Below are positions 32,668 through 41,142 of a DNA stretch of 41,142 nt, in pieces; position 1 is the stretch's first letter, and every line of letters begins with the position of its first letter. The notes beneath the pieces are model-generated. The model did not search any database. It saw only the letters and a list, made by a program, of their open reading frames with translations, and was not told where the DNA came from. The position numbers were made by a program, and so were the translations under genes. Source of the stretch: a virus; the IMG/VR virus record IMGVR_UViG_3300047557_002300, positions 1 to 41,142 of that record; one strand, given 5' to 3'.

Positions 32668-33059
32668 TTGGATTTAAAGAGTTGGAAGTGATTGCAGTCG
32701 TACGACTCAGCAGTGTCGTACTCAGGAAAATCAAATGTGCAATAAGAGCCATCGACGTTGTGATGGCAATCGCTACATTTGTTGATTGGTTTGAATTCCA
32801 CCCCAGATGGGGGTGATTCCACCCCGGATGTGAGTGGTTGATTTGCCATAAGCTTTTGTAGTTGCTCAATAAGATAGAGGTTACGCTTAGCTTCTTCAAA
32901 GAAATCTGCTGATACTTCATGGGTTGTAACCCTGTAGTCACAGCAGTCGCACTGCTTGCGTCGCCTTGTTGATAGACCAGTCTTCCTGGATTCAATAACT
33001 CTGAGTCCAGGTTGATTGCATTGAGGACAGTCAGGAAGGATTGTCTTCTGGAACGCCAT
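32664..33059 (-). CDS. NrdR-like zinc-ribbon protein
   Basis: This 131-residue protein's N-terminus CPQCNQPGLRVIESRKTGLS then TRRRKQCDCCDYRVTTHE follows the NrdR-type zinc ribbon (two CxxC pairs, then RRRRxC-xx-C and TT-x-E). The ATP-cone domain of NrdR is absent. The C-terminus holds another Cys/His cluster (INKCSDCHHNVDG, then CNHFQ), so two zinc sites are possible. It could regulate nucleotide metabolism genes such as thyX nearby; that is inference. It contains a short in-frame repeat (SGVE twice). Confidence 0.6.
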   Translation of the reverse strand: MAFQKTILPDCPQCNQPGLRVIESRKTGLSTRRRKQCDCCDYRVTTHEVSADFFEEAKRNLYLIEQLQKLMANQPLTSGVESPPSGVEFKPINKCSDCHHNVDGSYCTFDFPEYDTAESYDCNHFQLFKSK

Positions 33060-33360
33060 TGCTTTGTTCGATGTTCAGTGAATCAAGCAGATCAGTGGTT
33101 TGTTCTGGTCCAATCAAATTAAACGCATCAATAATTAATCGAACATTCGGTACTTCTTTGTAGTGTGTGTTGAGGAATAGTTCAGCAAACTCAAAGTCAT
33201 CAACTGATTTAGTTAATGAAAGCATGATGTCCGACGGCATTTCGTCAACGATACGTTCAACGATTGCACGACGGACTTTATCCCATGCTTCATCAGGGAT
33301 GACATCAGCAATGAGTTGAGTTATGTCTGTTGTTGTTTCAGATTGAAGTGGTGTGATCAT
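33031..33360 (-). CDS. Hypothetical protein (109 aa)
   Basis: From ATG 33360: MITPLQSETTTDITQLIADV, then IPDEAWDKVRRAIVERIVDE and FEFAELFLNTHYKEVPNVRL. It is helical with acidic patches. It overlaps the zinc-ribbon gene by 29 bases. There is no recognised family. A terminator-like hairpin (33362-33388) lies directly before the start. Confidence 0.55.
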   Translation of the reverse strand: MITPLQSETTTDITQLIADVIPDEAWDKVRRAIVERIVDEMPSDIMLSLTKSVDDFEFAELFLNTHYKEVPNVRLIIDAFNLIGPEQTTDLLDSLNIEQSNGVPEDNPS

Positions 33361-33361
33361 G

Positions 33362-33388
33362 AAGAAAAGACCCCTGGCTGAGCAGGGG
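33362..33388 (-). terminator. Terminator-like hairpin with U-rich tail
   Basis: CCCCTG/CAGGGG stem with a 6-base loop is followed on the minus strand by TCTTTTCTTC, only a few bases before the ATG at 33360. It could be a weak terminator of 33409-33771 or a leader hairpin of the next gene. Confidence 0.5.
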
Positions 33389-33408
33389 CCGAACATTCCG
33401 CATGAATC

Positions 33409-33771
33409 TTAGGCAGGTTCTGCCGGTGTGTCCAGGATTTGATCCATCAATCCTGACTCCTTGAGTCGATCCAACATGCCGCACATGATGGTGGCATGGG
33501 CATGGGTTTGTTCCATGAACATCTTTGCCCGCTCTGCGGACATGGTATGGATACGACCGGAGGGTTCCACATAGCGCCAGCTGCCATCAGGCTGGGGATC
33601 ACCTTGGAGGGCAAGACGTTCTGAGTTATGAACGTACCTGAGCTCGAGGTTGTGATAGTCCTTAAGGCCGTCAGCCGCAGTCCAGGTTGCTCCAAGGTTG
33701 TAACGCTGATCGTCGTCAGTGTAGGCGTGGAACTCAGGGATGAGATGTTTGAAAGCAGCAAAGATTTGCAT
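33409..33771 (-). CDS. Hypothetical protein downstream of tRNA-Leu (120 aa)
   Basis: MQIFAAFKHLIPEFHAYTDD then YNLGATWTAADGLKDYHNLE and YVEPSGRIHTMSAERAKMFM read as a folded small protein; the family is not recognised. Its ATG is 23 bases after the tRNA-Leu 3' end (through CCA), with an A-rich leader lacking a Shine-Dalgarno. This is the same spacing as the RNA elements before other genes. Confidence 0.6.
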   Translation of the reverse strand: MQIFAAFKHLIPEFHAYTDDDQRYNLGATWTAADGLKDYHNLELRYVHNSERLALQGDPQPDGSWRYVEPSGRIHTMSAERAKMFMEQTHAHATIMCGMLDRLKESGLMDQILDTPAEPA

Positions 33772-33794
33772 TGTTTTGAATTAAGTAGGTGTGT

Positions 33795-33880
33795 TGGTGG
33801 GGACAGAGAGAATTGAACTCTCACGGCCAATGGCCAACGGATTTTAAGTCCGTTGCGTCTACCTATTCCGCCATGTCCCC
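33795..33880 (-). tRNA. tRNA-Leu (anticodon UAA), CCA encoded
   Basis: On the minus strand: acceptor GGGGACA/TGTCCCC, anticodon arm ACGGA-CTTAAAA-TCCGT with TAA, a long variable arm (TTGGCCATTGGCC-type, typical for Leu) and T-arm GAGAG-TTCAATT-CTCTC. The 3' end ACCA is encoded. It overlaps the last 18 bases of the gene at 33863 and sits directly before the gene at 33409-33771. Confidence 0.95.
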
Positions 33881-34093
33881 ATCACTTGGACTTACCTCAA
33901 CATCAATCGATGATGAGTGCCAAGTGTGATCCTGTGGCAATGGCTCAGTGCCATAGGTCCAGGTATCGTAGTCTTCCTCATTACGAGGATCGGTTTCGTC
34001 CATGAGGATGTAATGAGGTGAGTTGTCTGTGATGTACTCACCAAGATTGGCCATAGCCATGGCGAGTAACTGTTGATCGGTGTAGTCAGTCAT
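33863..34093 (-). CDS. Small acidic hypothetical protein (76 aa)
   Basis: MTDYTDQQLLAMAMANLGEY then PHYILMDETDPRNEEDYDTW and TWHSSSIDVEVSPSDG. The last codons pass through the family B RNA copy (33883-33926) and into the tRNA-Leu gene. Either the C-terminus is read through the RNA structures, or the gene ends by truncation. The leader holds CCAGCC/GGCTGG. Confidence 0.5.
   Translation of the reverse strand: MTDYTDQQLLAMAMANLGEYITDNSPHYILMDETDPRNEEDYDTWTYGTEPLPQDHTWHSSSIDVEVSPSDGDMAE
33883..33926 (-). ncRNA. Family B RNA element, copy 5 (diverged), before tRNA-Leu
   Basis: On the minus strand: P1 CACTTGG/CCAAGTG (7 bp), 5' joining CA, an inner hairpin CTCAtCATC...GATGtTGAG, and 3' joining GTAAGT. 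This matches the other copies except the CAT is reduced and UG becomes GG. It lies 2 bases before the 5' end of the tRNA. Confidence 0.45.
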
Positions 34094-34143
34094 GATTGAA
34101 ACCAGCCCTAGTATCGAGGCTAAGGCTGGTAAGCCGTGCGGGC

Positions 34144-34677
34144 TCAGGCAGATTGTAGCTTATTTAAGCAAGCAAAGCTCCCATGATAAGCAAGAGCTGC
34201 TTCATTGTAAACTTTTGCAGCTTCCTCTAAATCTGTGTATGATCCCAAACAGATTTGTTTTCCATTCGCTTTTATACGAACGTCCCATTTACGCGTATCT
34301 TTCCTAAAACTCACACCTTTGTAACCTGATGTGTTGGAAGCAGGTTTATCTCTGTTAAAAGAGTTGCCTGCCTTGTTGGTAATACGTAAGTTTTCTATTG
34401 TGTTGTTTGATCGATCACCATCGCAATGATCAATGTAATCAAAACCAGGATCTAAATAAGTAGATAAATACCAAACAATTCTATGAGACGAATAGAATAA
34501 ACCCTTTATACAAACCTGGTAGTAACCTTTGCCATTGTTATTACCAGTAACAGCATCTTTGAGAGCCCTTGGATTTCTGGTTATTCTATTTCTCAAGCCA
34601 GAAGGAGAAGAAGGATCAACATAGATCTGTTGTTTTAAAAAGTTTAATTCAGGCATTGGATGAAACTTTTCAGGCAT
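34144..34677 (-). CDS. HNH-AP2 homing endonuclease
   Basis: The first half is HNH_3 (YYQVCIKGLFYSSHRIVWYL, then YIDHCDGDRSNNTIENLRI). The C-terminal part (NTSGYKGVSFRKDTRKWDVR, then ICLGSYTDLEEAAKVYNEAA) is an AP2 DNA-binding domain, a familiar pairing in phage homing nucleases. 177 residues is typical. Family B RNA copy 1 lies 10 bases before the ATG. Confidence 0.9.
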   Translation of the reverse strand: MPEKFHPMPELNFLKQQIYVDPSSPSGLRNRITRNPRALKDAVTGNNNGKGYYQVCIKGLFYSSHRIVWYLSTYLDPGFDYIDHCDGDRSNNTIENLRITNKAGNSFNRDKPASNTSGYKGVSFRKDTRKWDVRIKANGKQICLGSYTDLEEAAKVYNEAALAYHGSFACLNKLQSA

Positions 34678-34687
34678 GGCTTAATAA

Positions 34688-34721
34688 AAAGGACTTACAT
34701 GCAATGTAATGCAATGCCTTT
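34688..34721 (-). ncRNA. Family B RNA element, copy 1
   Basis: P1 AAAGG/CCTTT, joining CAT, P2 TGCA-TTACAT-TGCA, joining TGTAAGT. It lies between the PcfJ-like gene's stop and the HNH-AP2 start, 10 bases before the ATG. Confidence 0.55.
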
Positions 34722-34724
34722 GTG

Positions 34725-36455
34725 TCAATTTGCAGCAAGCTGCTTCTCCCGCTCTTGCAAGACCTGACGGAATGCTTCTGTGTAAGCTTCCCGTTGTTCT
34801 TCTGTCAACCGCTGGTTGGCAACACCAGAGATTTGCTTGACCGACATCAGGCCCATGTCAACCACCAGTTGGATGGTGAACGTGGGCTTACCATCAATCA
34901 TGCATAGCACAATGAAGTGCTTACGTTTCTTGATGTCATCGGCATAGTGGGATGCAGAACCGACGCAGTTGCGTACGGCCTGGCCCCACATTGCCAACTG
35001 ATGTGTGTCAACAGGTTGGAAGAATGACCAGGTCTCGCCGTTGCGTGTAACCCTGATGGGTTCAGGGAATAAGTCCTGACGCAAGGATTCGTTTGGATTC
35101 TGGATCTTCCAAGACTCAGCTTGGACATAGTCATGGAACTCATTGATGCGCCAACGTTTGGGTGGCGCAAGTTCCTTGCCATGACCAAGGATACGGATTG
35201 CCATGGAGAATGTATCATTCAGTTCATGGAATCCAGTACGTGCATAGCCGACTTCAGAGTCTGTCCAACGCATATCTATTTGTTCAAGATTTTTGCGGAG
35301 CATTGTAAACAACGATGCAACAGGCATGTGTTGACGCAACCATTCAATGAATTCATTGGAGGCATCAGCAAAGCTATGTGTTCTTATTTGACTAAGTTTG
35401 ATGTAACGAAGTTCGTTGTAATAAGTTTGGTAATGATCAAGAGGGCAATCGGGCCATATGTTATTAATCCAATCAATTGAATCAATAACTTGAATGAATG
35501 TCCTGAAGCCTTGAGTGATTGGTTTGCGTTCTGCGTTATCAGGATTGTTGTATGCAGTTGTGCAACGATCAAGTTCTGATTGCAGAAGTTTCTTGATTGC
35601 TGGCTTGGAAATGATATGAACAATTCTATTGATTGTTGAATAGGTTGCAGATACACAACCATTGTTATCATTTACATTGAACTTAGTTGCAGCATTGATT
35701 AAGTTATCCACAGTCATACCTTCTGTTTGATCACAGAACTTTGACATAAGCGGTGGCATATCAGCTGCATCAAAGATGTTGTTGCAACGAATGCGATCAA
35801 AGATTCCACGAGAATCACTCCAAGTAGGAATGTTTTCTCGTAGGCTTTTCTCGAATTGATTCGTTACTCGATCAATAATGTTGCGTCCCTTTTGGCAGTG
35901 CAGGTTAGATGCTTGCCATTGGTAAGAACGCCAGCCAGTTGAATCATTAGTAATGATGTCATCCCTGGTTATGTTCATCGAATAAGTAAACAACTGCGAG
36001 CCACGCCCAATGTCGTGGATGATGCACTTGTCTTTACTGTTCCAGATATGGTGCGGTGTGCCCTTAGCAGCAGCCGATGTGTTCTTGAATGCGTAGGCAT
36101 GGCCGTACACATACTGATCAGCTTGCTGCTTGGAAGGCAGCCATGCTGCGTACCACACCTGTTCGTAGTGGTAGAGGATGGCAATAACTTTGAGCCTGGC
36201 CTGTGGGGTTGCTACGTCCACAGGCGTAGTAAACACTTTGTATCGATCTGGTGCTTTCTGCTGGTTGATTTCATCAATCGCAGCTTGCTGATCTGATTCA
36301 CGCACCACGTTATGTGGAATCAGGTGCGGGATGTTACCAAGTGGGTACTTAGCTTTCTTGGTTGTGGTTTGCTTGGCCTGCTTAGCCAACACCTTCAGTG
36401 TTGGGTCATAGGCAAGCAGTTCGGTTTGTAGGTTGGAGGGAAGTTGGAATTGCAT
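34725..36455 (-). CDS. PcfJ-like protein
   Basis: This 576-residue protein's conserved end (MWGQAVRNCVGSASHYADDI, then MIDGKPTFTIQLVVDMGLMS and KQISGVANQRLTEEQREAYT) matches the PcfJ-like domain seen in conjugation and phage proteins; its activity is not known. The first two thirds show repeated Trp/Tyr-rich segments but no known fold. It lies between family A RNA copy 4 (22 bases before its ATG) and family B copy 1 after its stop. Confidence 0.65.
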   Translation of the reverse strand: MQFQLPSNLQTELLAYDPTLKVLAKQAKQTTTKKAKYPLGNIPHLIPHNVVRESDQQAAIDEINQQKAPDRYKVFTTPVDVATPQARLKVIAILYHYEQVWYAAWLPSKQQADQYVYGHAYAFKNTSAAAKGTPHHIWNSKDKCIIHDIGRGSQLFTYSMNITRDDIITNDSTGWRSYQWQASNLHCQKGRNIIDRVTNQFEKSLRENIPTWSDSRGIFDRIRCNNIFDAADMPPLMSKFCDQTEGMTVDNLINAATKFNVNDNNGCVSATYSTINRIVHIISKPAIKKLLQSELDRCTTAYNNPDNAERKPITQGFRTFIQVIDSIDWINNIWPDCPLDHYQTYYNELRYIKLSQIRTHSFADASNEFIEWLRQHMPVASLFTMLRKNLEQIDMRWTDSEVGYARTGFHELNDTFSMAIRILGHGKELAPPKRWRINEFHDYVQAESWKIQNPNESLRQDLFPEPIRVTRNGETWSFFQPVDTHQLAMWGQAVRNCVGSASHYADDIKKRKHFIVLCMIDGKPTFTIQLVVDMGLMSVKQISGVANQRLTEEQREAYTEAFRQVLQEREKQLAAN

Positions 36456-36477
36456 TGAATTGAGTGGGTAAATGGAA

Positions 36478-36505
36478 TGGGCAGTTTAACGTCATGCCCA
36501 GGACG
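36478..36505 (-). ncRNA. Family A RNA element, copy 4
   Basis: On the minus strand: CGTCC, stem TGGGCA/TGCCCA and loop TGACGTTAAAC, 22 bases before the PcfJ-like start. The stem changes from copy 2 are compensatory; the loop is the same. Confidence 0.7.
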
Positions 36506-36510
36506 GTTGA

Positions 36511-36762
36511 TCAATCTAGATCTATGGTGTCAACGAGTTGCCACTGAGGATCGAGGTGATCAAGATAGGTACAGAAGCCATCTTCATCAAGAGGGATTGA
36601 TTCTCCTGGATCCAGTTCAATAGTTGCTTGACATAATGCAGGAGCCCATTCTTCAGGGTCAAGACGAGTTGCCCGATAGAGCAGGCGCATTTCGTCAACA
36701 ACTGCTGTAACTGTGACATGAGTATCAGTGAATGAAGTGTCTTCGATGGCAAGGACTGTCAT
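36511..36762 (-). CDS. Small acidic hypothetical protein (83 aa)
   Basis: From ATG 36762: MTVLAIEDTSFTDTHVTVTA, then VVDEMRLLYRATRLDPEEWA and CTYLDHLDPQWQLVDTIDLD. It is an acidic, probably beta-rich small protein. The ATG overlaps the stop of the upstream gene by one base (TAATG). There is no family call. Confidence 0.6.
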   Translation of the reverse strand: MTVLAIEDTSFTDTHVTVTAVVDEMRLLYRATRLDPEEWAPALCQATIELDPGESIPLDEDGFCTYLDHLDPQWQLVDTIDLD

Positions 36763-36947
36763 TAGTCTTTGTCGATGTAGGAATAGAGTGGTGTTTTGAC
36801 AAGGCGGTACTTCATCCACAGCTGAGCCGTGTGGTACTCGCCATCAAAACGTGTTGAATCCAACACATTTGCTGATGCTCTGCGCCGTGCGCAGTCAGCA
36901 AGATTGATTCGATCAAACAAGTTGAGATTGTCGGTAACAGCAGACAT
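36762..36947 (-). CDS. Small hypothetical protein (61 aa)
   Basis: MSAVTDNLNLFDRINLADCA then SANVLDSTRFDGEYHTAQLW and a basic-Tyr end. It starts 26 bases after family B RNA copy 2, with the leader CCACTTACTCAACTCAAATC before the ATG. Confidence 0.6.
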   Translation of the reverse strand: MSAVTDNLNLFDRINLADCARRRASANVLDSTRFDGEYHTAQLWMKYRLVKTPLYSYIDKD

Positions 36948-36973
36948 GATTTGAGTTGAGTAAGTGGGCAGAC

Positions 36974-37003
36974 ACTGGGACTTACACCTTGCGGATGCCC
37001 AGT
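36974..37003 (-). ncRNA. Family B RNA element, copy 2
   Basis: P1 ACTGGG/CCCAGT, joining CAT, P2 CC-GCAA-GG, joining TGTAAGT. It is 26 bases before the ATG of 36762-36947. Confidence 0.7.
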
Positions 37004-37007
37004 ATCT

Positions 37008-37205
37008 TTAGATTATCTTAATGTTTGGAATGCTAACTCCAGTGTTCGGGATACTGAAAGATCCTTTCACACCATTTGGATTTGCATTGAGTGTTAGTTG
37101 GAATGGACCAAGCTTGATTGCTTTAGTAAATGATTTAATTCCGTGTTCAGTAATGTTCACACCATGAATGGTGCGATCAAAGCTGATGAGTGAACGCTTG
37201 GTCAT
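37008..37205 (-). CDS. Small hypothetical protein, possibly DUF4236-like (65 aa)
   Basis: MTKRSLISFDRTIHGVNITE, then KAIKLGPFQLTLNANPNGVK and GSFSIPNTGVSIPNIKII. The Gly/Ile/Ser beta repeats resemble DUF4236, but the match is weak. Its ATG overlaps the previous gene's stop (ATGA). Confidence 0.5.
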   Translation of the reverse strand: MTKRSLISFDRTIHGVNITEHGIKSFTKAIKLGPFQLTLNANPNGVKGSFSIPNTGVSIPNIKII

Positions 37206-37408
37206 TTGAGGTCATCCGGTAGGAGTGCTTGTGAATCTTCATCGTCCATATTGGACATAACAAACTTTTCTCCATTGGGGGCAATAAAGCCCCCGATGAA
37301 TCCCATACCGAGACGATCGGATGTTTCCTTCATGCGAGCAACAAGTTGCATGGCTTGAAGTCTTTGCATATCCATGGAGTCTGGTATGCGAGGAGTATTG
37401 TTGGTCAT
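37202..37408 (-). CDS. Small hypothetical protein (68 aa)
   Basis: MTNNTPRIPDSMDMQRLQAM, then QLVARMKETSDRLGMGFIGG and KFVMSNMDDEDSQALLPDD: helical with a short Gly-rich centre. The leader has GTTAACTCAACTCAGTTCCA before the ATG and no Shine-Dalgarno. The family is unknown. Confidence 0.55.
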   Translation of the reverse strand: MTNNTPRIPDSMDMQRLQAMQLVARMKETSDRLGMGFIGGFIAPNGEKFVMSNMDDEDSQALLPDDLK

Positions 37409-37536
37409 TGGAACTGAGTTGAGTTAACGATGGAAGTCTATCAGGGTTGTCAAGGGTTGAGTGGAGGGGTAGTACATAAGTTTATCTAATAGAAATTAAA
37501 TGAACTCCTGGTACTCCCCTCCGGGGGTTTGGGGGA

Positions 37537-37812
37537 TCAGCTGTGCATAGCTTGATGTTCTTTCCATGCGGCGGCATGCATCTCAGCCATTGTGATCGGC
37601 GGTTCGCCTACCTCGTCTGGCGCATAGTCCACATCAAGTTCATTCTCAAGCATGCCAATCACTTCCAATACAACATCTGCTGTATATGGAGTGAGATGCT
37701 CGTCCATTTGATGGCGCTTGCTCTCACGTTCTTGGATTGCTTTTAGGAGATCCACCACCTCTTGCAGGCGGTGATACTCGTTCTTCTTCCAGTCAATAGT
37801 TGGTTGTGTCAT
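37537..37812 (-). CDS. Small helical hypothetical protein (91 aa)
   Basis: MTQPTIDWKKNEYHRLQEVV then DLLKAIQERESKRHQMDEHL and ADVVLEVIGMLENELDVDYA: a charged helical protein. Family B RNA copy 3 lies 19 bases before the ATG. There is no family assignment. Confidence 0.6.
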   Translation of the reverse strand: MTQPTIDWKKNEYHRLQEVVDLLKAIQERESKRHQMDEHLTPYTADVVLEVIGMLENELDVDYAPDEVGEPPITMAEMHAAAWKEHQAMHS

Positions 37813-37831
37813 TGGATTAATGTTGAGGTAA

Positions 37832-37876
37832 AGCCTGGGACTTACACACCGAGTTGGCGTCGGTGATGCCCAGGCT
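37832..37876 (-). ncRNA. Family B RNA element, copy 3
   Basis: P1 AGCCTGGG/CCCAGGCT (8 bp), joining CAT, P2 CACCGA...TCGGTG, joining TGTAAGT. It is 19 bases before the ATG at 37812. The clearest example of the family. Confidence 0.75.
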
Positions 37877-37877
37877 A

Positions 37878-38144
37878 TTAGTTAACACTTGCGTGTTTGG
37901 ATTTAGGTTCGCTCATGATCCAGCCAGTGTAGTTATCACTGGTGCGATCAACGCGTATTAAACCGTATTGCTCTAGCTTGACCAATGCCTGAAGATATTG
38001 TTCAAGCCGTGAGCTTTGGGCAGGAAGCTTTGGTACAAAACATGGTGTGTTTCCATGTTTCTTCCTGTGATTCAGGAAGTAGGTGTACAGATTCCTTTGG
38101 TTGATGCTGAGTGCTGGCATCTGGTTCTGGACTTGCATTGGCAT
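37878..38144 (-). CDS. Winged-helix-like small protein (88 aa)
   Basis: Residues about 11-70 (ALSINQRNLYTYFLNHRKKH, then GNTPCFVPKLPAQSSRLEQY and LVKLEQYGLIRVDRTSDNYT) follow a LexA-like winged helix-turn-helix layout with a recognition helix and a wing. It could be a phage transcription regulator. Its start may be at an internal Met. The next gene's start overlaps (TAATG). Confidence 0.55.
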   Translation of the reverse strand: MPMQVQNQMPALSINQRNLYTYFLNHRKKHGNTPCFVPKLPAQSSRLEQYLQALVKLEQYGLIRVDRTSDNYTGWIMSEPKSKHASVN

Positions 38145-38479
38145 TAGATCAAGCCGAGAATCCTAAGCCAGCTGTCGGGATGGTCTGGTTCAACTTCGTC
38201 TTCACCTGGTGTGAAGCAGATGCTGTCGAACGACCACTCCTCGATTTCTTCGTTGGTTGGGATGTCGTACCAGCATTCGAGTTCCTCATTGCCGTCGACT
38301 GGGCTCCAGTAGCAGCGGAGGATGCCACGCTTGTTGCGGTAGACGCTGCCGGTGCTTGGCACTCCACTGGTTTCTGAATCCCAGTTGACTTCGGCTTGGA
38401 ACTGCTGCTGCCCCTCTTCTTCGGAGAAGGGGACATAGTCAAAGGCTGCTGCGATTTCTTGAGTGATGGGGTGAAGCAT
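38144..38479 (-). CDS. Acidic hypothetical protein (111 aa)
   Basis: MLHPITQEIAAAFDYVPFSE, then VYRNKRGILRCYWSPVDGNE and LECWYDIPTNEEIEEWSFD: an acidic Trp-rich protein that reads as real. The whole gene is overlapped by a second long frame that extends from the TM gene at 38559. There is no recognised family. Confidence 0.6.
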   Translation of the reverse strand: MLHPITQEIAAAFDYVPFSEEEGQQQFQAEVNWDSETSGVPSTGSVYRNKRGILRCYWSPVDGNEELECWYDIPTNEEIEEWSFDSICFTPGEDEVEPDHPDSWLRILGLI

Positions 38480-38559
38480 GAGATTAGTTCAGTGATGATG
38501 ATTGAGATGATTGTGATGATGACAATGATGATGTCATGTTCTTGATTAGGTTTGGTCAT
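38149..38559 (-). CDS. Membrane protein with long Ser/Ala/Lys tail overlapping 38144-38479
   Basis: From ATG 38559: MTKPNQEHDIIIVIITIISI, then IITELISCFTPSLKKS is a strong transmembrane helix. After about residue 35 the frame continues for about 100 residues of Ser/Ala/Thr/Lys-rich sequence that lies wholly over the acidic gene. The start overlaps the upstream stop by 14 bases. The TM part is likely real; the tail may be a chance open frame. Confidence 0.4.
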   Translation of the reverse strand: MTKPNQEHDIIIVIITIISIIITELISCFTPSLKKSQQPLTMSPSPKKRGSSSSKPKSTGIQKPVECQAPAASTATSVASSAATGAQSTAMRNSNAGTTSQPTKKSRSGRSTASASHQVKTKLNQTIPTAGLGFSA

Positions 38560-38749
38560 CGTAAGTTTCCTGTTCAGGTGGGTTAAGTTCATCTATTGAT
38601 TGATATGTATTAAAAGGATTGTCGAAGTTTTGATCTGAGTAATTCCAATCATCTTGCGATGATTCACGCATTGCTTGTTCTTGTTGATACGCCATGTCAG
38701 CCATGGCATCAAGCAAGTCTGCGTTGAAGTTGGGATCAAGTTGAGTCAT
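38546..38749 (-). CDS. Small acidic hypothetical protein (67 aa)
   Basis: From ATG 38749: MTQLDPNFNADLLDAMADMA, then EQAMRESSQDDWNYSDQNFD. It is acidic, Asn/Asp/Gln-rich and probably flexible. Family B copy 4 is 30 bases before the ATG. A longer frame extends through that RNA and is not favoured. Confidence 0.55.
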   Translation of the reverse strand: MTQLDPNFNADLLDAMADMAYQQEQAMRESSQDDWNYSDQNFDNPFNTYQSIDELNPPEQETYDDQT

Positions 38750-38779
38750 GGTTGGTTTGAATGAAAGGATTGGTTGAAC

Positions 38780-38828
38780 CTGGGACTTATATCCATTATT
38801 GAGAATGTTCTCAACAAGGAATGCCCAG
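38780..38828 (-). ncRNA. Family B RNA element, copy 4
   Basis: P1 CTGGG/CCCAG, joining CAT, P2 TCC/GGA extended by TTGAGAA/TTCTCAA, joining TATAAGT. It is 30 bases before the ATG at 38749. The inner hairpin is longer than in other copies. Confidence 0.6.
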
Positions 38829-38838
38829 TGTTTGTGGG

Positions 38839-39288
38839 TCAGACTTTGATATGGCTCCAAGCAATACCACGGGCGATGTTGTTGATGGCACAGCCAGTCA
38901 CATTAAACATCTTGCCAATGCGTTGGTACGCCTTGGTCTTGCTTGTGAACTGAGCCATGAATGTTTCGTCGTTCAACATCCCTTTGATGTCACGGACTGA
39001 GGCAGGGTTGAGCTTGGGGGTTGGACCGTTGTAACGAACATGGTTCTTACGACTGCCAACCATAGGTTTGAGCTGCGGCACTACAGCTTCTTGTACCTGG
39101 CGCTTAACCACCACTGGTGATGGTTGCTGCAGGGGGAAGCGGGGTGTAGTGTCGAGTGCATTGCGAATGGGGAAGCCAAGGGTGACTGATGAGCCATCCT
39201 TGACTACCGATACGGTAACCCTGCCATCTTTAGTGATGACACTGACGTGATCAGGGTTTTGAACGTCGAGCTGACTGATGGGTTCCAT
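38839..39288 (-). CDS. HTH DNA-binding protein (149 aa)
   Basis: The C-terminal half (ASVRDIKGMLNDETFMAQFT, then KAYQRIGKMFNVTGCAINNI and ARGIAWSHI) is a helix-turn-helix of the type attached to phage homing nucleases (IK-x-ML ... IGxxFxVTxxxINxIxxGxxW). The N-terminal half (KDGRVTVSVVKDGSSVTLGF, then PSPVVVKRQVQEAVVPQLKP) has a beta part and basic linker. It may be a regulator or a nuclease remnant. The leader holds GCTGGTAC/GTACCAGC (39331-39360). Confidence 0.6.
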   Translation of the reverse strand: MEPISQLDVQNPDHVSVITKDGRVTVSVVKDGSSVTLGFPIRNALDTTPRFPLQQPSPVVVKRQVQEAVVPQLKPMVGSRKNHVRYNGPTPKLNPASVRDIKGMLNDETFMAQFTSKTKAYQRIGKMFNVTGCAINNIARGIAWSHIKV

Positions 39289-39330
39289 TGCGTAGCTTGA
39301 GGTGAGTGCGTTGGATGCAGATGGAGAATA

Positions 39331-39360
39331 GCTGGTACAAACAAGGATGCAAGTACCAGC
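39331..39360 (-). other. 8-bp leader hairpin
   Basis: GCTGGTAC/GTACCAGC encloses 14 bases including TTGCATCCTTGTTT. It lies 42 bases before the ATG at 39288 and resembles the RNA elements in position, though not clearly in sequence. Confidence 0.5.
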
Positions 39361-39402
39361 CGTAGTGGTTCAGGCAGAGATGACACCAGTGATAGTGCGT
39401 CG

Positions 39403-39753
39403 TTACTTCATGTAGAGGTATCCGCCGCACCAGTCGGCATTGTGTAGGCAGGTCTCATACGAAACATCGTCTAGCAGGTTGTACCGCACATGTTTGGCAG
39501 GTGCCTTCCATGATGCGGGCTTATAGACAGCACCTGATTGACGATGGATAAAAGCATGGACACTGCCTTCGTCACCACCAAGACTGTTACGTCTGGTGTT
39601 GCGTTGAATTAGTTTGTAGTACTTAGTACCACGCACGATGTCAAATTCAATGCCATAGTCTCCGTACTGTTTGTTGTAATGTTCCAGAAGCTTATCGATC
39701 AAACAATTGATGCGTGCTTCTAGAACTTTGGTGTGTTCAGCGAGTGAGTACAT
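39403..39753 (-). CDS. Conserved-type phage hypothetical protein (116 aa)
   Basis: MYSLAEHTKVLEARINCLID is followed by YGIEFDIVRGTKYYKLIQRN and AVYKPASWKAPAKHVRYNLL, and ends LHNADWCGGYLYMK. The YKPASWKAPAKxVRYN block is a widely conserved phage/cyanophage hypothetical motif. No function is known. The leader is Pyr-rich with CATTCAACTTCCCTC. Confidence 0.7.
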   Translation of the reverse strand: MYSLAEHTKVLEARINCLIDKLLEHYNKQYGDYGIEFDIVRGTKYYKLIQRNTRRNSLGGDEGSVHAFIHRQSGAVYKPASWKAPAKHVRYNLLDDVSYETCLHNADWCGGYLYMK

Positions 39754-39928
39754 TGTTGTTTGAGGGAAGTTGAATGAGATCTACGCCTACCATTGCAGAG
39801 CCAGTAATGCCTGCAATGATGACGACGAAGATTGTCATGATGATCTTGCTACCAAGAGTCTCACGAGACGCATGGTAAGAGTCAAGGGTCACATACTTGC
39901 CCTTGCCCATGGAGTAGATCTGTTTCAT
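39737..39928 (-). CDS. Small membrane protein (63 aa)
   Basis: MKQIYSMGKGKYVTLDSYHA, then a hydrophobic helix (IIMTIFVVIIAGITGSAMVG) and LIQLPSNNNV. It overlaps the next gene by 17 bases. Its leader holds a two-stem hairpin (39941-39986) and the leader AGGTCAACTCAA before the ATG. Confidence 0.6.
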   Translation of the reverse strand: MKQIYSMGKGKYVTLDSYHASRETLGSKIIMTIFVVIIAGITGSAMVGVDLIQLPSNNNVLTR

Positions 39929-39940
39929 TTGAGTTGACCT

Positions 39941-39986
39941 GTAGGTAAGTGTGTTGGCAGGACATTGAGTCCTGCAGAAAACCTAC
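39941..39986 (-). other. Two-stem leader hairpin
   Basis: An outer stem GTAGGT/ACCTAC encloses GCAGGAC-TCAAT-GTCCTGC. It ends 12 bases before the ATG at 39928. The 3' side holds CACTTACC, near the family B joining sequence in feel, but not the same. Confidence 0.5.
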
Positions 39987-40036
39987 CGCCGATACGAATT
40001 CATATCAACGGAAAGGTTAGGTGCAGGAGTCTGATG

Positions 40037-40423
40037 TCAGAAGGGAATCTCTTCCAAGGTTGCTTCAGCCTTTGGTGCTGTGACCTCAGGCTGTGCCTTG
40101 GGACGAGGGGCAGATCCGATGACAGCACGTACTCTAGTCAGTACCATCTCAGGACACTTCAGTGCCACGAGATCGCCATCCTTGAAGTAGTGCGTACGGA
40201 TGCTGCTAAGTCTGACATCATATTGAGTGAGGATGAGCTGCTGACCAACAACGAGTGTACCGTTGTTATAGGCGGTCATCAGGCCATTGTTGTTATTGAA
40301 CTTAACGCGGCAAGTACCTTCGTACATGTCGTTAACAACTACGGTGATCGCAAGGAACTCGCGACCTTCGTGTGTTGCAAGCTCCATGTAGGAGATGTTG
40401 CCGACGATGGTGTTTGAGAACAT
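40037..40423 (-). CDS. SSB-like OB-fold protein with EEIPF tail
   Basis: From ATG 40423: FSNTIVGNISYMELATHEGR, then EFLAITVVVNDMYEGTCRVK and LILTQYDVRLSSIRTHYFKD: alternating beta strands like an OB fold. The last residues are Ala/Pro-rich and end EATLEEIPF, like the DDIPF tip of bacterial SSB. It is the second SSB-like gene in the window. The leader has hairpins CCCATCC-GCAA-GGATGGG and GCAGAC/GTCTGC, then CCAACTCAACTCAGTTCAATC. Confidence 0.65.
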   Translation of the reverse strand: MFSNTIVGNISYMELATHEGREFLAITVVVNDMYEGTCRVKFNNNNGLMTAYNNGTLVVGQQLILTQYDVRLSSIRTHYFKDGDLVALKCPEMVLTRVRAVIGSAPRPKAQPEVTAPKAEATLEEIPF

Positions 40424-40442
40424 GATTGAACTGAGTTGAGTT

Positions 40443-40500
40443 GGATAGCAGACGGTGAGGTCTGCAGTAACCCATCCTTGCGGATGGGAAAGTGCAAACG
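40443..40500 (-). other. Leader with two strong hairpins
   Basis: On the minus strand CCCATCC-GCAA-GGATGGG with a tetraloop is followed by GCAGAC-CTCACC-GTCTGC, then the CAACTCAACTC leader of the SSB-like gene. The first hairpin follows shortly after the stop of the gene upstream and could also stop transcription, but no T-run is present. Confidence 0.5.
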
Positions 40501-40710
40501 TCACTTGGACTTTAAGTATGCATTGTTGATGCAATAGTACGTATCACCAAGGAAACCTTGGACGTAAATAAGATTGTGATTGGGGCGGGTGTTGCATGTG
40601 TTGACGTAATGCTTATTGATCAGTTTCTGACCAAAGACAGAGATCAACAATCCAACACCTGTGCCCATCACAATGGCAAGTGTTGCATCAACCATGTAGT
40701 GCTTAGTCAT
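40501..40710 (-). CDS. Small membrane protein (69 aa)
   Basis: MTKHYMVDATLAIVMGTGVG then LLISVFGQKLINKHYVNTCN: one transmembrane helix near the start, then a Tyr/Asn-rich outer part ending AYLKSK. The leader is CAATTCAACTCACATC before the ATG. The family is unknown. Confidence 0.6.
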   Translation of the reverse strand: MTKHYMVDATLAIVMGTGVGLLISVFGQKLINKHYVNTCNTRPNHNLIYVQGFLGDTYYCINNAYLKSK

Positions 40711-40737
40711 GATGTGAGTTGAATTGATGGATGGTAA

Positions 40738-40965
40738 TCAGATGTTGCCAGCGACCTGGCAATAGTTGTAGAAGTCAACGAGCTCGGCATGCAGATCAGA
40801 TACTCCTGCTGGTGTACCACCACCAAGAGTACGAACTGCCTGATCAATCCAATCAGGATTGCCGTCGCCATTGTCGACTTCTACTTCGTAGTGCAGCTGA
40901 GTTGATTCACCGCCGTACCATACGACACGGTCGGTGCAGCTGACAGTGGGTTGATAGATGAACAT
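40738..40965 (-). CDS. Small hypothetical protein (75 aa)
   Basis: From ATG 40965: MFIYQPTVSCTDRVVWYGGE, then LHYEVEVDNGDGNPDWIDQA and GVSDLHAELVDFYNYCQVAG: a small alpha/beta protein. It starts 4 bases after the stop of the next gene upstream. There is no recognised family. Confidence 0.6.
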   Translation of the reverse strand: MFIYQPTVSCTDRVVWYGGESTQLHYEVEVDNGDGNPDWIDQAVRTLGGGTPAGVSDLHAELVDFYNYCQVAGNI

Positions 40966-40969
40966 GAGT

Positions 40970-41137
40970 TCAGTTGGGTAAGATGACACTAGAAAGAAAG
41001 ACGCGATAACCATTGACCTCATGGATCAATGCTTGCTTGCGTACTTTGAGCTGAGCTTTGATACGCTCAGGTGTTTGGTCTTGAGCAACCTTGACTGCAC
41101 AGGCAGCAAGGAGTTGCGATAGCTTGGAACGTAACAT
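40970..41137 (-). CDS. Small basic hypothetical protein (55 aa)
   Basis: MLRSKLSQLLAACAVKVAQD, then QTPERIKAQLKVRKQALIHE and VNGYRVFLSSVILPN: a basic helical protein. It is complete within the window. The family is not recognised. Confidence 0.55.
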   Translation of the reverse strand: MLRSKLSQLLAACAVKVAQDQTPERIKAQLKVRKQALIHEVNGYRVFLSSVILPN

Positions 41138-41142
41138 GAATT

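Follow-up and report, generated by a model that had tools for sequence, protein, structure and literature searches.

Five related hairpins on the minus strand of a 41,142-bp virus record that carries phage genes (the window) raise the question of what kind of element they represent and what such an element might do for a phage. An initial annotation had described them as an RNA with variable stems around the fixed joining bases CAU and UGUAAGU, placed in five leaders, and had suggested a core that binds a ligand or a protein.

Copies of the element in the window

All five copies were found, each on the minus strand, four of them clear and one diverged. They are given below with the scores of the covariance model (see under distribution), together with the tRNA gene that adjoins the last of them.

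36974 to 37003, minus strand: copy 1, tetraloop form, ACTGGG-CAU-CCGCAAGG-UGUAAGU-CCCAGU (49.5 bits, E 8e-11)
37832 to 37876, minus strand: copy 2, as DNA AGCCTGGG-CAT-CACCGA..TCGGTG-TGTAAGT-CCCAGGCT, as RNA AGCCUGGG-CAU-CACCGA..UCGGUG-UGUAAGU-CCCAGGCU (37.5 bits, E 1e-7)
38780 to 38828, minus strand: copy 3, long P2 and UAUAAGU core, CUGGG-CAUU..-UAUAAGU-CCCAG (25.1 bits, E 2e-4 with default filters; 12.5 bits with filters off)
34688 to 34721, minus strand: copy 4, A-U rich P1, AAAGG-CAU-UGCA..UGCA-UGUAAGU-CCUUU (15.3 bits, E 0.08; alone not significant)
33883 to 33926, minus strand: copy 5, diverged (CAC / GGUAAGU), CACUUGG-CAC-P2-GGUAAGU-CCAAGUG (9.4 bits, E 2.9; alone not significant)
33795 to 33880, minus strand: tRNA-Leu(UAA) gene, directly downstream of copy 5 (ARAGORN, Rfam RF00005)

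The motif TRTAAGTCC occurred four times in the window versus 0.46 times expected, and four occurrences were reached in 0/100 shuffles. The folding z-scores were -3.8, -4.2 and -4.3 for the three strong copies and were weaker for the copies at 34688 (-1.6) and 33883 (-3.0). The consensus of the window copies, read on the minus strand, is CUGGG-CAU-[P2]-U(G/A)UAAGU-CCCAG.

An upstream stop codon was located 0-10 nt before the start of the element in four of the five copies. Copy 1 starts directly after the stop codon of gene 37205-37008, its P1 can be extended to 10 bp (37007-36970), and its end is about 27 nt from the ATG of gene 36947-36762. For copy 2, the stop codon of gene 38144-37878 lies 1 nt upstream and the ATG of gene 37812-37537 about 20 nt downstream; for copy 3, the distances are about 10 nt from the upstream stop codon (gene 39288-38839) and about 30 nt to an ATG near 38752 (gene ending at 38546). 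Copy 4 is separated by 3 nt from the upstream stop codon of a PcfJ-like gene (36455-34725) and by about 10 nt from the downstream ATG of an HNH/AP2 endonuclease gene (34677-34144). This endonuclease gene (34144-34677, minus strand), directly behind copy 4, is perhaps a recent insertion.

Copy 5 overlaps the 3' end of ORF 34093-33863, and 2 nt separate the copy from the tRNA-Leu(UAA) gene behind it. We accepted it as a copy of the element because two other loci (L025 and L039) carry, at the same place and adjoining tRNA-Leu, a canonical CAT/TGTAAGT element with a near-identical P1 (ACACTTGG/CCAAGTG). In these two loci and in the window (33863-34093, minus strand), an ORF of 73-76 aa crosses the element and extends into the tRNA-Leu(UAA) gene, which would make the mature tRNA and the intact mRNA mutually exclusive. 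The description of the five sites as leaders is incomplete, as four of them are post-stop and the fifth lies in the end of an ORF before tRNA-Leu(UAA).

Fold and conserved core

The element is made up of a P1 stem of 5 bp closed by invariant G-G/C-C pairs, an asymmetric internal loop that is constant (CAU / U[G/A]UAAGU), and a P2 cap that can be as short as a 2-bp tetraloop hairpin or as long as a 12-bp stem; the minimal (tetraloop) form has the 5-bp core P1 and a 2-bp P2. Its orientation is fixed relative to transcription. The parsed set contained 34 distinct 5-bp combinations of P1 and 103 distinct P2 sequences of 7-36 nt.

Comparison of 103 distinct sequences showed pairing in 85.7% of the cells, versus 52% when the partner was slid by one column, and changes on both sides in 173 cells, versus 60 in shuffles, although kinship among the 103 sequences inflates these cell counts. 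The alignment points to strong covariation in both P1 and P2, in agreement with the proposal of variable stems in a folded RNA. The joining bases also behaved as had been claimed and remained constant when they were left free in the search: the four core bases were GUAA in 51/55 matches and AUAA in the other 4/55, and CAU was recovered in 51/56. When P1 was left free, the G-G/C-C pairs beside the core were present in 23/24 matches.

The first U of the core covaries with the U of CAU (U-U, G-U, C-G and G-C), which argues for a pair extending P2. This covariation also speaks against a T-loop-like reading of GG-UGUAAGU-CC, which was entertained as an idea only. Extra C-G and A-U pairs beside P2, present in the predicted fold, were rejected when the A and the G were found to change without compensation.

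The pairs of the element are almost purely Watson-Crick. G-U pairs represented 2/295 pairs at positions 4-5 of P1 and 4/208 at positions 3-6 of P2, versus 31/398 in the acceptor stems of the tRNAs of the same loci (Fisher P 3e-6 and 0.003, respectively). Compensatory changes are thus abundant while G-U is nearly absent, a combination that bears on whether the structure is formed by RNA or by DNA; the near-absence of G-U could mean that the hairpin is formed by DNA, or that such very short stems are selected to be stable.

Distribution and position relative to genes

A search of IMG/VR with the pattern GGGCATN{7,37}TGTAAGTCCC gave matches in at least 119 stretches, and the reversed pattern, used as a control, gave 0 matches. 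Among the matches listed, a gap length of 8 was found in 49 parsed pattern matches, far above an even spread, because this length corresponds to the CC-tetraloop-GG form. A covariance model trained on 21 tetraloop copies from the metagenomic matches then extended the search that the initial annotation had called for; it returned 258 matches (129 + 129) in 164 loci, nearly all on virus contigs, from which 165 distinct copies were parsed. The further copies that the model added were diverged; they cluster on the contigs already matched and share a single orientation.

The nearest named relative of the window, by its DNA polymerase, is Synechococcus phage S-EIV1 (67.8% identical); short blastn searches against named phages had given no real match. 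The isolate S-EIV1 carries two copies, located on the minus strand of KJ410740 at 40726-40787 and 41436-41478 and each between annotated genes of the same strand. Most records of the S-EIV1 group contain 2-6 copies, and those of the other groups mostly one. No element was found near the gene examined in S-CBWM1, S-TIM5 and Lsp-JY19 (relatives by the capsid) or in two phages related by phrog_4652. The photosystem gene psbA was present in two carriers, from two groups, which identifies those carriers as cyanophages; the carriers are many phages, several of them clearly cyanobacterial phages. The exact pattern had 48 matches in 84,980 bacterial and archaeal genomes, which were judged to be due to chance as they were mostly unpaired and without tetraloop enrichment. 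As judged from these searches, the element is virus-specific.

Analysis of the flanking genes, for which simple ORF calls were used so that individual distances may be off, showed a stop codon 1-8 nt before P1 in 90 of the 148 copies with an identified upstream ORF (mode 3-4), while the UAA of the core (UGUAAGU) was itself the stop codon in 12 more. One or the other of these anchors was observed in 34 of 44 unrelated upstream gene families and was kept in 29 of the 36 copies without a start codon within 60 nt downstream. The anchor is not absolute: the stop codon is located 20-80 nt upstream of some copies in the S-EIV1 group, and the gaps between stop codon and element are about 30 and 41 nt in S-EIV1 itself. 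The stop-to-P1 spacing shifts by a few nucleotides and the frame is not fixed, and a recoding signal was rejected on this basis.

On the other side of the element, the next AUG or GUG is 18-34 nt downstream in 96 of the 165 copies, the expected ribosome footprint lies beyond the end of the element, and the downstream genes are unrelated to each other. The 5' end of a tRNA gene is located 0-3 nt downstream in several unrelated phages: tRNA-Leu(UAA) in the window, L025, L039, L228 and L188, tRNA-Asn(GUU) in L108, L186 and L192, and tRNA-Thr in L030. The copies of L007/L121 and L077 have no downstream cistron: a stop codon precedes them, an intrinsic terminator comes next, and a convergent gene lies beyond it. 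The element is thus intercistronic or post-stop, and more than a leader. It was rejected as an intrinsic terminator (GC hairpin and U run) itself, as a CA-rich leader follows most copies and the true terminators of L007 and L077 are separate, behind the element. No conserved promoter-like block was found before it.

Several features of the surrounding regions were also recorded. Most genes of the S-EIV1-like group, including the minus-strand genes of the window from 33000 to 41142 and those of related loci, have a CA-rich sequence of the CAACTCAA type before the start codon and no Shine-Dalgarno sequence. In a GC-rich group (L227, L023, L045, L059, L196, L199 and relatives), about 250 nt of GGCNNGGC-like repeats, apparently non-coding, are located behind the element, between the phrog_4652 gene and the head-tail joining gene. 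In one cyanophage group, the element is found upstream of the gene for the major capsid (major head) protein, whose nearest named relative is that of Synechococcus phage S-CBWM1. L057, L084, L044, L063 and their relatives have a second conserved part behind the element and before the major head protein gene, made up of a short hairpin followed by CATTTGAAG(T/A)C and a GGAG ribosome-binding site; a similar TTTTTGAAC is present in S-CBWM1, where the hairpin before it is a different one.

Possible functions and known counterparts

The property shared by the copies, a location behind one coding RNA and before the next RNA, leads us to favour, tentatively (probability of about 0.42), a virus-specific element for processing or end protection that would split polycistronic phage RNA. 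It would be a small cis-acting structured RNA serving as a junction signal between the cistrons of a polycistronic transcript. Its core may be recognised by a nuclease or an RNA-binding factor, probably the host's, as the carrier phages were not found to have any gene in common: clustering of the proteins of 14 carriers, which remote homology could escape, revealed no shared nuclease or RNA-binding gene, and a phage-encoded partner was rejected as no family was common to all 14. From the observed location we infer that the RNA could be cut at the element or have its ends protected there. The hairpin would then remain on the upstream mRNA, immediately past the stop codon, and the next mRNA or tRNA would start just behind the element with a defined 5' end. 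The stop anchor, the tRNA 5' ends, the copies followed only by a terminator, the AUG spacing, the site before the major capsid gene in another cyanophage group, the covariation, the fixed core, the empty reversed-pattern control and the restriction to viruses all speak for this reading. Against it, simple end protection would need no conserved internal loop, and G-U pairs are far rarer than expected for RNA; compact phage genomes favour short gaps anyway, yet copies without a close downstream gene keep the anchor. The element is an intercistronic hairpin between a stop codon and the next gene, as expected of an RNase III site, but its minimal form of 5-bp P1 and 2-bp P2 does not provide about 20 bp or more of helix and is too short for a classical site of this enzyme. 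A mechanism that blocks initiation does not fit, since the usual ribosome footprint lies downstream of the element.

The constancy of the internal loop beside a freely variable P2 cap would also be expected of a binding site or decoy, bound in trans by a host or phage RNA-binding protein, for which position would matter only for being transcribed and not unwound by ribosomes. This possible but somewhat doubtful reading would explain the sites behind stops, before tRNAs and upstream of strongly expressed genes; the multiple copies in the S-EIV1 group (one in most others), the copies without any downstream cistron and the presence of the element before the major capsid gene are in its favour. 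A pure decoy, however, would not need tight spacing to the stop codon, the AUG and the tRNA 5' end, and the 14 clustered carriers offered no candidate protein. Another reading is a translational insulator, a post-stop roadblock keeping terminating or scanning ribosomes off the next ribosome-binding region or tRNA: stop codons mostly end 3-4 nt before P1, tRNAs directly follow the element and most leaders of the S-EIV1 group have no Shine-Dalgarno sequence. We nevertheless consider an insulator improbable, as there is nothing to insulate where only a terminator follows, and a simple hairpin would suffice, which leaves the constant core over.

The near-pure Watson-Crick pairing (2/295 and 4/208 G-U, versus 31/398 in tRNA stems) and the many G-U pairs of a second hairpin family in the same niche, described below, would suit a hairpin acting at the DNA level, extruded or single-stranded, for a recombinase, a replication protein or an unusual polymerase promoter. 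Such a role is distinctly improbable: the orientation is fixed to transcription and the spacing to the stop codon, AUG and tRNA end, there is no conserved promoter-like sequence upstream, and short stems alone may select against G-U. The suggestion of the initial annotation, a riboswitch that binds a ligand or a leader under protein control, either of them acting on the downstream gene, agrees with the constant core within variable stems and with the start codon at 18-34 nt in 96/165 copies. It has very little chance of being correct, given the unrelated downstream genes and leaders that showed neither a terminator nor Shine-Dalgarno sequestration, with no expression platform seen; a riboswitch is unlikely because of the copies that directly adjoin tRNAs or stand at the end of an operon, after the last gene and before the terminator. 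The ligand-binding leader thus conflicts with the tRNAs, the terminators and the upstream-stop anchor, while a protein-binding core is possible. We also regard as doubtful a new virus-specific class of RNA, possibly self-acting (a minimal self-processing or exonuclease-blocking fold) or read by a single, widely conserved host factor, that would serve unrelated phages as a standard junction mark between the stop codon and the next RNA, with at least one second, pseudoknot-like fold in the same niche.

The favoured role in processing or end protection has known counterparts. The RNase III sites of phage T7 are hairpins with an asymmetric internal loop, located between cistrons and close behind a stop codon; cleavage leaves the upstream mRNA with a 3' hairpin and the next gene with a short leader. 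These sites are long (about two helical turns), and their sequence is little conserved. The element is likewise a post-stop intercistronic hairpin with an asymmetric internal loop, but its minimal form has 5+2 bp and its internal loop is nearly invariant. In the cip-cel operon of C. cellulolyticum, selective RNA processing and stabilisation involves intergenic stem-loops at processed sites, which set the abundance of the upstream transcript and act through their folding energy (PMC4423207). The element shares their intergenic location behind a gene; unlike them, it has a specific core that is conserved across unrelated phages. The manA and wcaG motifs (RF01745 and RF01761) are, like the element, structured RNAs of phages of cyanobacteria; their function is unknown, manA RNAs being found in 5' UTRs of metabolic genes and wcaG RNAs appearing to regulate exopolysaccharide or high-light genes (PMC2864571). 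The L17 downstream element, a structured RNA domain behind a stop codon, was termed highly unusual in bacteria (PMC2864571). It shares the post-stop location, but it is a different family and is tied to one ribosomal protein gene. The PeSL cassettes of T4-type phages (attributed to Arbiol 2010) are reportedly stem-loops at gene junctions that carry an early promoter; the element is also found at phage gene junctions, but no promoter was seen at it and the distance to the start codon is mostly about 18-34 nt.

The claim that no named RNA class has this pattern stood up to an Rfam 15 scan of the window, which gave only tRNAs and two weak matches within the tRNA region and none at the elements (E<=1). 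The scan of S-EIV1 gave no match at the elements either, and in cmscan the element matched neither manA, wcaG nor any other Rfam family. No description of it was found in a literature search that covered neither bioRxiv nor most subscription journals. The element appears to be new as an RNA family, and the way in which it probably works is of a known type. It combines compelling covariation with a nearly invariant 10-nt core in several unrelated phage groups and is present in at least one isolate, S-EIV1, where it can be tested. A processing or protection signal of this type would be a general punctuation of polycistronic RNA in the carrier phages; it would give a handle on RNA control by cyanobacterial phages and perhaps a compact tool for operon splitting in Synechococcus.

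A second intercistronic RNA family, CGUCC-[stem UGGGCA]-N-GACG-UUAAAC-[UGCCCA], was observed on the minus strand of the window at 36499-36479, about 27520-27500 and about 26394-26372, as well as in S-EIV1 (L171), upstream of the gene for the ssDNA-binding protein, and in many other loci. The window copy at 36479-36499 had no match in Rfam. Its upstream CGUC can pair with the GACG of the loop, which suggests an H-type pseudoknot. In the 143 distinct copies that were parsed, the stop codon is mostly 10-12 nt before the stem, the AUG is mostly 19-28 nt after it, and G-U pairs are common.
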